Shown here one piece after another: positions 16,582-22,529 of a stretch of DNA of 46,832 nucleotides. Both the position numbers and the translations under genes were made by a program. This stretch comes from Acidimicrobiia bacterium (GTDB taxonomy: Bacteria; Actinomycetota; Acidimicrobiia; Spongiisociales; JAENVV01): contig JAENVV010000033.1 of the NCBI GenBank assembly GCA_016650365.1, positions 1 to 46,832 of the forward strand, in the 5' to 3' direction. Under the pieces are notes generated by a model that was not told the origin of the DNA, searched no databases, and saw nothing but the letters and a program-made list of their open reading frames with translations. Numbering within the stretch: the first letter of the stretch is position 1; every line of letters begins with the position of its first letter.

Positions 16582-18492
16582 GTGAACCGCACCGTTCGTA
16601 CGATTCTTATCTATTTCGCCGTAGTTACGGTGTTGTGGCTGGCTTTTTCGGCCTGGTTCGATGCAGCCAACGCGCCAGAACAAATTGACTTCACCCGTTT
16701 GGATGAGCTCGTTGCTGATGGCGAGGTTGGAACCGTTCGCTTCTTCCCGGATGCCAACAAGGTTGAAGTCCGCAGCCCCGGCACCACACTCGAGGATCCA
16801 GCCGAGTATTCGATTTCCTACCCGGACCAGTTCGAAGACGAACTGCTGATTGAACTCCAGGCGAGTGGTGTCGAGGTTTCGGTCGATCCGGAACCGACGT
16901 CGATCACGACCGTGCTTCTCTCGTTGCTTCCCTGGCTATTCATCCTCGGATTCATGTTCATCATCTTCACGCAGATGCAGGGTGGCGGGAATCGGGTGAT
17001 GCAATTCGGCAAGTCCAAGGCCAAGCAGATGACCAAGGACCAGCCCAAGGTTACGTTCAATGATGTGGCCGGCCTCGAAGAGGCAATTGAGGAACTCGAA
17101 GAGATCAAAGACTTTCTGCAAAACCCGGCCAAGTTCCGCGCCATGGGGGCCAAGATTCCTCGTGGTGTTTTGTTGTTTGGCCCTCCCGGAACCGGTAAGA
17201 CCCTGCTGGCCAGGGCGGTCGCCGGTGAGGCGGGTGTGCCGTTCTTCTCGATCTCCGGTTCTGACTTCGTGGAAATGTTTGTTGGAGTCGGGGCGTCCCG
17301 GGTTCGTGACCTCTTCGAGCAGGCCAAGGCGCAAGGCCCGGCCATCGTTTTCATTGATGAAATCGACGCCGTTGGCCGCCATCGTGGCGCCGGCCTCGGA
17401 GGCGGACACGACGAACGTGAACAAACGCTGAACCAGTTGCTCGTTGAGCTTGACGGATTTGAGGCTCAGACCGGCGTCATTGTCATCGCCGCCACCAACC
17501 GACCCGACATTCTCGATCCGGCATTGCTACGTCCAGGTCGATTCGATCGTCAGATCACGGTTGGTCGGCCGGCTTTCAAAGGGCGCGCCGCCATCCTGGC
17601 AGTGCATGCCAAGGGCAAGCCGTTCGCTCCAGACGTCGATCTCAACGTCATTGCTCGCCAGACTCCCGGCTTCACCGGCGCCGACCTTGCCAACCTCATC
17701 AACGAAGCTGCGCTGTTGGCCGCCCGGCACGACAAGAAGCTCATCTCGACCGAAGAGATAGAAGAAGCAACCATTCGGGTCATTGCCGGTCCCGAGCGCA
17801 AGAGCCTCGTGATAACCGAGGACGAAAAGAAGATCACGGCCTACCACGAAGTCGGGCATGCTCTGGTCGGTTGGGTATTACCCAACGCTGATCCGGTCCA
17901 CAAGGTAACCATCATTCCCCGTGGCAGCGCCGCCGGTCACACTCAGTCAATGCCGTCGGAGGATCGCCTGTATCGGCGCCGCAGCGAGTTGATCGATCAA
18001 CTCGCCATGGCACTTGGCGGTCGCACTGCCGAGGAGATTATGTTCGGAGATCCAACTACCGGCGCCTCGAACGACATCGAGCAGGCGACCAAGATTGCTC
18101 GTCAGATGGTGATGGAATACGGGATGAGCGACAAGCTCGGGCCGATGAAGTACGGCCACGCCGATGGCGAGGTATTCCTCGGTCGTGACTACTCGCGCCA
18201 GGCCGACTACTCCGACGATATGGCGGCAACCATCGATAGCGAGGTGCGCAAGCTCATCGGCCAAGCGCACGATGAGGCCAGGGCGATCCTGACGACCCAC
18301 CGCAGCGACATGGATAGGATGGCAGCCGCTCTGCTCGACGAGGAGACACTCGACTCGAAGCGAATCGCCGAACTTCTGGCTGACGTACCCAAGTGGCAAC
18401 ACTCGCTGAATGGCTCCATGAGAATTGAGATTCCGAACGGCCTGCCGACTCCACCCAAAGATGGCGTTGCCGCTTCCCAGGCAGGCGCCTGA
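16582..18492 (+). CDS. ftsH: ATP-dependent zinc metalloprotease FtsH
   Basis: 636 residues. Two transmembrane helices (about 7-25 and 112-132) flank a small periplasmic-side domain. The AAA+ module has Walker A GPPGTGKT (Lys206), Walker [12 protein letters not shown] and the second region of homology [20 protein letters not shown]. The M41 protease domain has HEVGH (His422, Glu423, His426). FtsH degrades unfolded membrane proteins and some regulators. The GTG start has GGAGG about 7 bases upstream. FolE begins 18 bases after the stop, so ftsH may lead the folate cluster. Confidence 0.98.
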
Positions 18493-18509: not shown

Positions 18510-19073
18510 ATGAATGTTGACGAGCCAGCGATCGCCGATGCGGTGCGCTCCATCCTGATCGCCATAGGCGAGGATCCGGATCGTGAGGGCCTTGCCGAAA
18601 CCCCGACCCGGGTTGCCCGCATGTACGCCGAACTCTTCGAAGGGATGCATCAGGATCCGTATGAGATCGTGAAATCGGTATTCACCGAAGATGCTCATCG
18701 GGAAATTGTCATGGTCCGAGACATTTCGTTCTACTCGATGTGTGAACATCATCTCGTTCCCTTTCACGGCAAAGCCCATGTGGCGTACTTGCCTGATGGG
18801 GTCCTGACCGGACTATCCAAGTTGGCTCGACTGGTGGAAGCGTATGCCAAGCGGCCCCAGATGCAGGAGCGACTGACGTCGCAGATAGCGGACACCCTGA
18901 TGGAGGCTGTCAAGCCGCTCGGGGTCCTCGTGGTCATCGAAGCCGAACACATGTGCATGAGTATGCGGGGGGTCCGTAAGCCGGGTGCCTCGACGACCAC
19001 TTCGGCGGTTCGCGGGATCTTCGCCAGTCGGGCGACGACCAGAGCCGAAGCCTTTGCTCTCCTGAATCGATGA
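18510..19073 (+). CDS. folE: GTP cyclohydrolase I
   Basis: 187 residues. The zinc site reads [18 protein letters not shown], with the second Cys in [17 protein letters not shown]. The substrate-side [17 protein letters not shown] segment is also clear. It converts GTP to dihydroneopterin triphosphate, the first step of folate synthesis. It ends with an ATGA overlap onto folP, the first of several overlaps that tie the folate genes together. Confidence 0.97.
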
Positions 19074-19900
19074 TCTGGCAGGTTCGAACCAAGGCGTTGT
19101 CGATCGAGCAGCCGCTCATCATGGGCATCGTCAATGTCACCCCGGACTCGTTCTCTGACGGTGGACAGTTCCAGGGTGTTGAGGAGGCGGTCGATCACGG
19201 GTTACGCCTTGTCGCAGACGGAGCCGACCTGGTCGACGTCGGTGGTGAATCAACCAGGCCGGGGGCGGTCGACGTGTCCATCGAGGAGGAACTCAAGCGG
19301 GTGGTCCCGGTCGTCGAGGCTCTGAGTGCTCGGGGGGTGATCGTTTCCGTAGACACATCCAAGCCCGCCGTGGCGGTCGCCGCCATGGAAGCCGGTGCAG
19401 AGATTGTCAACGACGTGACCGGATTTCGAAATCCGGAGATGCAGCGGGTCGTCGTCGAGCGAAAGCCAGGCGTGGTCGTCATGCACATGGCTGGTTCCCC
19501 ACGCACCATGCAAGACAATCCGCAATACCACGATGTGGTTGCTGAGATCGGGGAGTATCTCACCGGTCAAGCTGCCCTGTTGGAACATGCCGGCCTCGAT
19601 GCCAACCGGATCTGCATCGATCCAGGAATAGGATTCGGCAAGACGACCGAACACAACCTGGCAGTTCTCGCCAACACCAGGGTGCTGGCTGGACTCGGCT
19701 ATCCGTTGATGGTCGGGGCTTCCCGCAAGCGTTTCATAGGTGCAGTAGTGGACGTCGAATCAGTGGAGGATCGTGATAGGGCGACGGCTGTTTTGTCCGG
19801 TCTTGTTACATTCCTGGGAGCCAGCGTGGTCCGGGTCCATAATGTTGTCTACTCTCGGCAGGCCATGTTGCTCAGTGCGGCTATCGTTGCGCGCACATGA
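19070..19900 (+). CDS. folP: Dihydropteroate synthase
   Basis: 276 residues with all main DHPS motifs: [61 protein letters not shown] and [11 protein letters not shown]. It joins p-aminobenzoate to the pterin diphosphate to give dihydropteroate. The ATG overlaps the folE stop, and its own stop overlaps the next gene by 4 bases. Confidence 0.97.
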
Positions 19901-20379
19901 CAGGTCTTAAACCACGTGATTTCGTTTGGGTTATTGCCGGACGCCTGGCAGTCAGCCAGCGAATCGGCGGCTATGGGTTCCAGCATCGTCGGGTCAGGCG
20001 CGAGGAAGAAATCATCTGGCTACGCGATAACGCCAAGATCAACACTCTCGTTTCGCTTCTGACCGGTAACCAGAATATTTCCGCCTATGAAGAGGCCGGT
20101 TTCGCCGTTACCCACGAACCCCTCGCCACCGAACTCAAAGTCGCGTCTGACGTTCCGAGGGTTCTCAAGGCGATCAGCGCGGCCCTTGCCCCGAGTAACG
20201 CCGTGGTTCTTATTCACCGTGATCTGGTCGATGAGACCCTGGCCGGTCTATTGGCCGCCTACCTGATTTCAAGTGGCATGGTTGGGGATCCGATCAAGGC
20301 CGCCGCGGTCATCCAGGAGATTCTCGGCCGACCACTTGGCCCCGAGGCTCGGACGATGATGAGCGTCGCGGTCCGGTGA
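19897..20379 (+). CDS. Dual-specificity-phosphatase-like protein lacking catalytic residues
   Basis: 160 residues, sitting between folP and folB with 4-base overlaps on both sides. The layout resembles the tyrosine/dual-specificity phosphatase fold. It opens FVWVIAGRLAVSQRIGGYG, continues with EEIIWLRDNAKINTLVSL and YEEAGFAVTHEPL, and has a strand before the active-site loop, VVLIHRDLVDETLAG, followed by LLAAYLISSG. In active enzymes that loop is HCX5R. Here the Cys position is Arg108 and the Arg position is Thr114, while His107 is kept. Phosphatase chemistry by the usual route is therefore impossible. The fold assignment is by eye from pattern, not by search. A role tied to pterins is suggested only by operon position. 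Confidence 0.62.
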   Translation: MTGLKPRDFVWVIAGRLAVSQRIGGYGFQHRRVRREEEIIWLRDNAKINTLVSLLTGNQNISAYEEAGFAVTHEPLATELKVASDVPRVLKAISAALAPSNAVVLIHRDLVDETLAGLLAAYLISSGMVGDPIKAAAVIQEILGRPLGPEARTMMSVAVR

Positions 20380-20735
20380 CCGATCAGATTTCTCTGAGAG
20401 GGCTTGAGGTATTTGGCTATCACGGCGTTCAACCTCACGAGGCCATCACCGGTCAAATCTTCGGTATCGACATAGATCTGTTTCTAGATACCACCGCGGC
20501 TGCCGCAGCTGACGATCTGGCGCTCACGGTGGATTACGGTCGGCTGGCGGATCAGGTGGTCGAAGCCGTGACAGCTGAGCGACATGACCTCATCGAGACC
20601 CTGGCGCATCGCATCGCCGGTGTCTGTATGGAACTCGACCTGGTGACAGGCTGCGAGATCACCGTTCACAAACCGGCCGCCCCGATCCGGCATCCTTTTC
20701 AGGATGTTTCGGTGACGGTCCGGTATCCCCGATAG
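20376..20735 (+). CDS. folB: Dihydroneopterin aldolase
   Basis: 119 residues: LRGLEVFGYHGVQPHEAITGQIFGID at the start, then TVDYGRLADQVVEAV, LIETLAHRIAG and the end motif ITVHKPAAPIRHPFQDVSVTV. All are typical of FolB. It cleaves dihydroneopterin to hydroxymethyl-dihydropterin, the substrate of FolK. The GTG start overlaps the upstream stop (GTGA). Confidence 0.93.
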   Translation: MTDQISLRGLEVFGYHGVQPHEAITGQIFGIDIDLFLDTTAAAAADDLALTVDYGRLADQVVEAVTAERHDLIETLAHRIAGVCMELDLVTGCEITVHKPAAPIRHPFQDVSVTVRYPR

Positions 20736-20744
20736 GGCTGGATT

Positions 20745-21674
20745 ATGCAGGTGGCAATCGGACTCGGGTCCAACCTCGGTGATCGGCTGAACTTGCTTCG
20801 GCAGGCCATCGACCAGCTTGGACAGCATGGAGAGATCGTGGCCGTGTCGAGTCTGTATCGGTCCGATCCGGTCGGGGGTCCCGAACAGGCGGATTTTCTC
20901 AATGCAGTGATCGTGATCGAAACAAACCTGGACCTCCCAACTCTGCTGGCAACGTGTCGGCAGATCGAGGCGTCGGCCGACCGGGTGCGTGACCAACGAT
21001 GGGGGCCCCGGACGCTCGACCTCGACATCCTGACTGCTGCGACCCCACCATATGTGTCCGAGACGCTGACGGTCCCCCATGAGCGACTGGCTGAACGTCG
21101 GTTTGCCGTCGAGCCGTTGGCGGAGGTCTGGCCCGATGCGGCGACCGGTTCCGGGACAGCCCGTTCGAAGCTGGACGACGTTCGTGATCAGTCGGTTGAT
21201 CGTCTGGCGGGGTCGGGGTGGCAAGTGGCTCTGTCGAAGGGTGCCTGGTGGGTGACGGCTCAGGTTGTTTTGTTGATCCTGGTGGCGGGGGCGGCCTTTC
21301 GATACTCGGGTTCGTTCGACGCCCGGTGGATCGGTGTGCCACTCTTTCTGGGGGGTGTGACCCTGGCCGCTCGAGCCATGCAGGTCCTCGGTTCGAGCCT
21401 TACGCCGTTTCCGCAACCGTTGGAGGGGTCGGCCATGATCTCGTCTGGTCCGTACGGTCTCGTGAGACATCCGATTTATGGGGGCCTCATTCTCTCGCTG
21501 GCCGGATTGGCTCTGTTTATGGGCTCCTGGATCGCACTGGGAGGGTCGGTAGCAGTCGGTGGGTTCTTCTGGCTCAAGTCGTCCTTCGAGGAACGCCGAT
21601 TACTCGTTGCTCACAGTCGATACCGTCGGTATATGGACGAGGTGCCCAAGCGTCTCGTCCCGTTCATCGTCTAG
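20745..21674 (+). CDS. folK: FolK (HPPK) fused to an ICMT/PEMT-like membrane methyltransferase domain
   Basis: 309 residues in two parts. Residues 1 to about 155 are a complete pyrophosphokinase: GLGSNLGDRL at the start, SSLYRSDPVGG, FLNAV, then the signature RWGPRTLDLDIL (86-96) and VPHERLAERRF. It activates hydroxymethyl-dihydropterin for FolP. Residues 165-309 are a membrane domain with helices near 168-186, 196-214 and 246-278, the motif GPYGLVRHPIYGG (235-247) and a terminal EERRL..YRRYMDEVPKRLVP block. These are hallmarks of isoprenylcysteine carboxyl methyltransferase-like (ICMT/PEMT) proteins. There is no stop or frame change between the parts. Normal FolK is about 160-180 residues. 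The fusion probably tethers FolK to the membrane; the methyl acceptor is unknown. Confidence 0.85.
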   Translation: MQVAIGLGSNLGDRLNLLRQAIDQLGQHGEIVAVSSLYRSDPVGGPEQADFLNAVIVIETNLDLPTLLATCRQIEASADRVRDQRWGPRTLDLDILTAATPPYVSETLTVPHERLAERRFAVEPLAEVWPDAATGSGTARSKLDDVRDQSVDRLAGSGWQVALSKGAWWVTAQVVLLILVAGAAFRYSGSFDARWIGVPLFLGGVTLAARAMQVLGSSLTPFPQPLEGSAMISSGPYGLVRHPIYGGLILSLAGLALFMGSWIALGGSVAVGGFFWLKSSFEERRLLVAHSRYRRYMDEVPKRLVPFIV

Positions 21675-21746: not shown

Positions 21747-22529
21747 ATGGCTCGAATTGTCATTGTTGGCCCGGGACGCGCCGGAATGTCCGTCGGGCTG
21801 GCGGCCAGGACCGCCGGGCACGAAGTTGTCGCTCTCGCTGCTCGCCGCCCCATCGAGACCGATCTGGCCAGGTCGATTCCCCTCACATCGTCGCTTCCCG
21901 ATGCCGAGTTCGTGATTGTGGCCGTTTCTGACGATTCCATCGCCGAAGTCGCCACACAACTGCACCCGCCAGGTGGTTCCGTAATCGCCCACCTGTCTGG
22001 CCGGACCTCGGTCGATGTTCTCTCTCCGCTTGGAAACAAGATTGGATCAATGCATCCGCTCATGACGCTGCCTTCTGGGGAGATCGGAGCGGCCGCATTG
22101 GTAGGGGCCAGTGCCGCGATTACCAGTCGATCCGAAGCGGTGGCCGGCGCGTTGTCAGTTTTTGCTACTTCGCTTGGAATGCGACCATTCCGACTCCCGG
22201 ATGCTGCCAAAGCCGCCTATCATGCCGGAGCGACCGCCGCTTCCAACTATGTCGTGGCCGCCCTGGCCGTCGCAGAACAACTCCTCGACGCCGCCGGGGT
22301 GCCCTTATCGGTCGCTGAGCCGCTTGTGGCGGCGTCGGTTTCCAACGCCGGCCGCCTCGGTAGCCTGGCGGCCCTGACCGGGCCCATCGTTCGTGGCGAC
22401 ATAGGCACTGTGCGTGCTCAGCGGGACGCGGCCAGGGAGGCGGGCGTCGAGGGCCCCTTCGTTGCGATGGGGACCGCTACGGCTCTCCTGGTGGGCAACT
22501 GGGAGGTCATGCGGGAGGTTCTGTCATGA
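21747..22529 (+). CDS. Rossmann-like and DUF2520 domain protein next to panC
   Basis: 260 residues. The N-terminal Rossmann domain begins ARIVIVGPGRAGMSVGLAAR (a GxGxxG-like NAD(P) loop). The C-terminal alpha-helical domain (from about residue 125) contains KAAYHAGATAASNYVVAAL, the DUF2520 core. Such proteins look like ketopantoate/pyrroline reductases and are often found beside panC, so a reductase step in pantothenate synthesis is a reasonable but unproven guess. The ATG at 21747 is preferred to one ten codons earlier because AAAGGACTGA lies at a proper distance. The gene overlaps panC by 4 bases. Confidence 0.82.
   Translation: MARIVIVGPGRAGMSVGLAARTAGHEVVALAARRPIETDLARSIPLTSSLPDAEFVIVAVSDDSIAEVATQLHPPGGSVIAHLSGRTSVDVLSPLGNKIGSMHPLMTLPSGEIGAAALVGASAAITSRSEAVAGALSVFATSLGMRPFRLPDAAKAAYHAGATAASNYVVAALAVAEQLLDAAGVPLSVAEPLVAASVSNAGRLGSLAALTGPIVRGDIGTVRAQRDAAREAGVEGPFVAMGTATALLVGNWEVMREVLS

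Follow-up and report, generated by a model that had tools for sequence, protein, structure and literature searches.

A gene in the window (the whole stretch of DNA analyzed here, 46,832 nucleotides from an Acidimicrobiia bacterium) joins FolK, the HPPK of folate synthesis, to a membrane domain of the ICMT/PEMT superfamily; the fusion is a true one, shared by many genera and subject to selection. Both domains belong to known families; what is new is their combination, its spread, and the hotspot for fusions at the C terminus of FolK, where membrane anchors or partner enzymes were acquired on several occasions in the order. A partial search of the literature found no description of a FolK-ICMT fusion or of a membrane-anchored HPPK. 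HPPK is a drug target that is treated as a soluble enzyme, and a lineage whose sole HPPK is a predicted membrane protein would make the spatial organization of folate synthesis testable. The fusion also provides a genetic handle on a broad bacterial subfamily of ICMT-like putative methyltransferases.

The fused gene, its cluster, and the HPPK half

The window has the gene order ftsH-folE-folP-X-folB-folK, with the fusion in the place of folK; ftsH-fol clusters are common in actinobacteria. The features of this region are as follows.

16582..18492, + strand: ftsH, upstream cluster gene, named from its translation
18510..19073, + strand: folE (GTP cyclohydrolase I), named from its translation
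19070..19900, + strand: folP (dihydropteroate synthase; PF00809, E 3.5e-82)
19897..20379, + strand: conserved 160-aa protein between folP and folB (cluster of 10 loci)
20376..20735, + strand: folB (dihydroneopterin aldolase; PF02152, E 2.8e-33)
20745..21674, + strand: folK-ICMT-like fusion gene, 309 aa plus stop (ORF, domain matches, conservation)
20757..21134, + strand: HPPK (FolK) domain, residues 5-130 (PF01288, TIGR01498, invariant columns, Foldseek)
21135..21239, + strand: linker, residues 131-165, of a length that varies between relatives (alignment, model)
21240..21671, + strand: predicted ICMT/PEMT-superfamily membrane methyltransferase domain, residues 166-309 (Pfam, model, fold match)
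21399..21419, + strand: subfamily motif LTPFPQP, residues 219-225, in which P223 and P225 never vary, whether the member is fused or standalone
21465..21485, + strand: RHPIYGG motif, residues 241-247, conserved in the alignments
21588..21602, + strand: EERRL motif, residues 282-286, with E282 and E283 near-invariant
21747..22529, + strand: DUF2520/Rossmann protein (Pfam), a gene type joined to folK in genome G006 and, by sequence, in G172

The 160-aa protein has no match in Pfam or NCBIfam. It is conserved in the order and, by eye, recalls a dual-specificity phosphatase without the catalytic cysteine (VLIHRDLVDET).

The preliminary description of this DNA had claimed that a full HPPK domain runs in frame into a polytopic one, and this is borne out by a single uninterrupted ORF (ATG start, zero internal stops in the ORF list) with both domains above the Pfam cut-offs; the blocks GPYGLVRHPIYGG and EERRL occupy residues 235-247 and 282-286 of its product. 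In an 18-row alignment of fusions, 52 columns distributed over both halves are invariant, including the HPPK catalytic residues, RHPIY, and EE. The dN/dS ratio between the window and genome G001 is ~0.10 for the membrane half and 0.30 for HPPK, and that between G003 and G004 is ~0.11 for both; both halves are under purifying selection.

The N-terminal half matches the HPPK family of Pfam (PF01288, residues 5-130; E 1.2e-37; 129 bits against a cut-off of 25.7) and the folK family of NCBIfam (TIGR01498; E 6e-38; 130 bits against a cut-off of 54). The HPPK residues R80, R82, W86, R89, D92, D94, and H112 are invariant or nearly so in the fusion alignments, and R80, R89, D92, D94, and H112, which are invariant in 18 fusions, correspond, as read from the sequences by eye, to R82, R92, D95, D97, and H115 of Escherichia coli HPPK. 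The AlphaFold model of the full fusion has a pLDDT of 86, and a Foldseek search with this predicted model aligned its HPPK half to E. coli HPPK with a TM-score of 0.90. As judged from its residues, HPPK activity of the fusion is close to certain. The window genome (G000) has a single PF01288 gene, as does each of nine relatives having any; with no other HPPK gene present, folate synthesis has to depend on the fusion, barring uptake of folate. A separate observation concerns genus g34, six near-complete genomes of which (G058, G182, G213, G250, G265, and G275) have no HPPK gene and, in place of folP, only distant Pterin_bind proteins; g34 apparently no longer makes folate.

The membrane half

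Four membrane helices are predicted in the C-terminal half (residues 166-186, 194-218, 243-259, and 262-289). The domain check that the preliminary description had proposed for this part returned two Pfam matches, PEMT (PF04191, residues 194-286; E 5.4e-10; 40 bits against a cut-off of 25) and ICMT (PF04140, residues 200-269; E 6e-6; 27 bits against a cut-off of 24). Because HPPK entries dominated the Foldseek results for the full model, we modeled the membrane half separately, which gave a confident four-helix fold (pLDDT 92) with Ma-ICMT (PDB code 4a2n), AtTam46 (8xku), and a eukaryotic ICMT (5v7p) as its best PDB fold matches, and profile searches agree. The label "ICMT-like" given earlier thus stands as a superfamily assignment, supported by Pfam and the fold match, and fails for isoprenylcysteine methyltransferase proper, the NCBIfam model of which (NF040696) scores 41-44 bits against a cut-off of 160, >100 bits short. 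We take RHPIYGG to mark the cofactor site in this superfamily; RHPIY and EE are conserved equally in fused and standalone members, and the motifs make methyltransferase activity of this half likely. The subfamily is recognizable by LTPxPxP ahead of RHPIYGG and by a glutamine of the first helix (Q173) that never varies.

Spread, unfused relatives, and other partners of FolK

Searches with the fusion protein, first in a set of 59 relatives, later in a sample of 296 genomes of the class, recovered the full-length uninterrupted fusion in 28 genomes of the latter sample, which together with G005 makes 29 (42-92% identity). All belong to four families (f1, f3, f4, and f5) of the window's own acidimicrobial order, in ~17 genera. 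A scan for the membrane domain in 84,980 species genomes yielded 80 loci, 16 of them fused, and rested on a single pattern, so that rare fusions elsewhere may be missed. Those of the fused loci that were placed in the tree group with the window's order, including one from a record labeled Acidobacteria; this record (L047) carries the fusion, nests in family f3, and is probably a mislabeled genome. The plasmid records searched contain no copy of the fusion.

Nearly all copies of the membrane domain from the order, whether fused or not, are grouped in its tree, successive forks having 93-98% support. In the best tree the fused copies are not monophyletic, but their monophyly is not rejected (AU p 0.26). 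Some lineages inside fused families, namely, G006 and genus g18, have lost the methyltransferase half, and g18 retains an intact FolK; in the LysS tree, losses are nested within these families (G006 in f1 and G028 in f3). One old fusion followed by separations and a few fusions are both possible histories. Several lineages are without any close copy of the membrane domain; this, with the losses inside fused families, indicates that the domain is dispensable.

Standalone members of the subfamily occur in Chloroflexota, Trueperaceae, other Actinomycetota, and a few other phyla. In the sister families f2 and f8, the closest unfused copies lie away from folK, often adjoining clpB, and in some genomes have as neighbors mscL, archease, dnaJ with a MerR (hspR-like) gene, a DUF427-like gene (assigned by eye), or an AAA ATPase gene. 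Copies of family f7 have different neighbors, as do those of Chloroflexota, and no neighbor of the f2, f8, or f7 copies points to folate. As these copies lie away from folK, the membrane half's own chemistry is probably not folate chemistry, and as their contexts differ between groups, no substrate follows from shared neighbors. As a side observation, at five loci of families f2 and f8 (L118, L119, L121, L122, and L111) the unfused ICMT-like gene is divergent beside clpB, which suggests a stress-related role; at L111 one other methyltransferase gene lies between the two. A search for the HspR operator near the unfused copies gave best sites agreeing at 11/14 positions, none higher; in f2, these few sites all fall outside the interval that separates clpB from the methyltransferase gene.

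FolK has acquired other C-terminal extensions in the same order. (i) In 10 genomes of f2 (L019, L132-L136, L138, L139, L141, and L151), it ends in a single transmembrane (TM) helix, with a mean hydropathy of ~1.9-2.6 over the best 19-residue stretch. (ii) In other f2 genomes, of several genera, it is fused to an acyl-CoA thioesterase (4HBT_3/4HBT_3C; L028:781-2130, L148:782-2119, L152:95-1435, L160:207-1520, and L157), a combination for which we found no description among anything recovered. (iii) Further partners are a uracil phosphoribosyltransferase (UPRTase) in one f2 genome (L149:775-1947), an APH-type phosphotransferase in one f8 genome (L027:505-1983), and a DUF2520/Rossmann protein in G006, which belongs to the same family as the window (L128:4205-5488), and also, in frame, in the distant G172 (L261) from another order of the class. 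Pfam confirmed the partner domains in the seven proteins scanned, that of L148 scoring slightly under the cut-off; L157 was included because its tail is similar, and the DUF2520-like partner of L261 was assigned by sequence. Among 40 control FolKs from other orders of the class, none has a TM tail and one is fused (L261), so that the hotspot is largely a feature of the window's order; these counts, resting on a simple hydropathy average and on gene starts set by rule, may shift slightly. The 10 sister FolKs with one TM helix, against 0/40 in other orders, lend support to the earlier proposal that the fusion places HPPK at the membrane. A WW pair is often found near the end of the f2 tails. As to whether these tails are remnants of the first helix of the methyltransferase, a comparison by eye showed no motif in common, and the invariant Q173 is missing in them.

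Function, alternatives, and comparison with known systems

We think it fairly probable that the protein is a bifunctional, membrane-held HPPK with two independently working sites, the methyltransferase half of which was unfused at origin. The N-terminal half, as the organism's only HPPK, would pyrophosphorylate 6-hydroxymethyl-dihydropterin in the cytosol for folate synthesis. The four-helix half would be a methyltransferase of the ICMT/PEMT superfamily, presumably SAM dependent, that methylates a lipid-like or membrane-bound substrate and tethers HPPK to the inner face of the cytoplasmic membrane, each site most likely working on its own. With HPPK ahead of four helices, both ends and the conserved loop would be in the cytosol, and this side would fit the need of HPPK for ATP. 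As to origin, a separate methyltransferase gene would have come to sit directly behind folK in the ftsH-fol cluster before the two joined. The fusion appears to have been kept over much of the order's history, and having FolK at the membrane may be part of the benefit.

A serious if unlikely alternative is neutral read-through, in which the FolK C terminus tolerates extensions, loss of a stop codon joins neighboring genes, and the outcome is only the cotranslation of unrelated enzymes. The unrelated partners within one order (thioesterase, APH, UPRTase, and DUF2520) speak for it, since a C terminus fused to them may simply tolerate such events with no gain from the membrane; so do the joining of folK to its usual downstream gene, DUF2520, in the distant G006 and G172 and the unfused methyltransferase copies elsewhere, often by clpB. 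Against this, the ICMT joint persists in ~17 genera of four families, fusions are nearly absent from other orders of the class (1/40), and read-through into a neighboring gene does not describe how f2 gained its single TM tail. The f2 tails favor a benefit from membrane placement; the fusions to soluble enzymes argue that part of the pattern may reflect nothing more than tolerance. We are doubtful of the stronger proposition that location of FolK at the membrane was itself selected by more than one route, namely, the methyltransferase in f1, f3, f4, and f5 and the TM anchor in f2. If it were true, folate synthesis would be organized at the membrane, possibly next to FtsH; we know of no folate pathway that requires membrane or FtsH organization.

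We give little credence to the idea that the membrane half is not an enzyme but a scaffold working with an AAA+ machine, FtsH for example, in the manner of AtTam46 in the Ycf2-FtsHi motor. AtTam46 is its closest solved relative by sequence and best PDB profile match (C-terminal 80 residues, E 2e-14) as well as a fold match, the fused gene shares a cluster with ftsH, and unfused copies in the sister families adjoin clpB or another AAA ATPase gene. However, the cofactor-site motifs are kept in all members, Chloroflexota copies have other neighbors, and the ftsH neighborhood is weak evidence because that cluster is so widespread in actinobacteria. Substrate coupling, whereby both sites would serve one pathway, the membrane half methylating a hydrophobic molecule linked to pterin or folate or adjusting folate synthesis by sensing SAM/SAH, strikes us as very improbable; the domain is joined to the only HPPK within the fol cluster and both active sites are intact, but several phyla have standalone members of the subfamily in surroundings unrelated to folate, and genus g18 lost the methyltransferase half with FolK intact. 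The preliminary description had offered, as one of two possibilities, a link of pterin activation to methylation, which is undercut by the unfused copies away from folK and by the joining of FolK to unrelated soluble enzymes. A frameshift or chimeric assembly has a negligible chance of being the explanation: the fusion of G037 is apparently split at what is an ambiguous base of its assembly, but its genus mate G048 has it in frame as far as the contig end, and the same in-frame joint is unbroken in 29 separate assemblies, so that the joined frame against which a check had been advised is excluded by comparison.

The bifunctional, membrane-held HPPK that we prefer can be set against several known systems. 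The preliminary description drew a parallel to the small membrane protein gene (DUF3180) that presumably lies beside folK in other actinobacteria; this is likewise a small membrane protein gene by folK but of another family, and homology is ruled out, as DUF3180 (PF11377) has no match in the fusion protein, and the 148 genomes scanned from this class gave none above the cut-off. The models of MddA (NF045656) and LmtA (TIGR04571), which are bacterial proteins of the same superfamily, give weak profile matches in 12 and 9 of 46 subfamily members, respectively, and no match to the window's own membrane domain. Ma-ICMT (4a2n), an archaeal homologue of isoprenylcysteine methyltransferase, shares the fold (TM-score of 0.78, normalized to the query), the RHPxY and EE motifs, and the four core helices; the two differ in that identity in the fold alignment is 17%, the profile match starts only at residue 65 of 4a2n, and the window's domain has its own LTPxPxP motif. 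AtTam46 is a 396-residue plant chloroplast protein of the Ycf2-FtsHi motor complex and is without a fused pterin enzyme. FolK fusions with solved structures join soluble folate enzymes, namely, FolP (4pzv, 2bmb, and 7mpy) and FolB (2cg8). The present fusion has in common with the HPPK/FolK family the whole domain, its catalytic residues, its predicted fold, and its place among the fol genes, and it differs from that family in the membrane enzyme attached, as predicted, to its C terminus.
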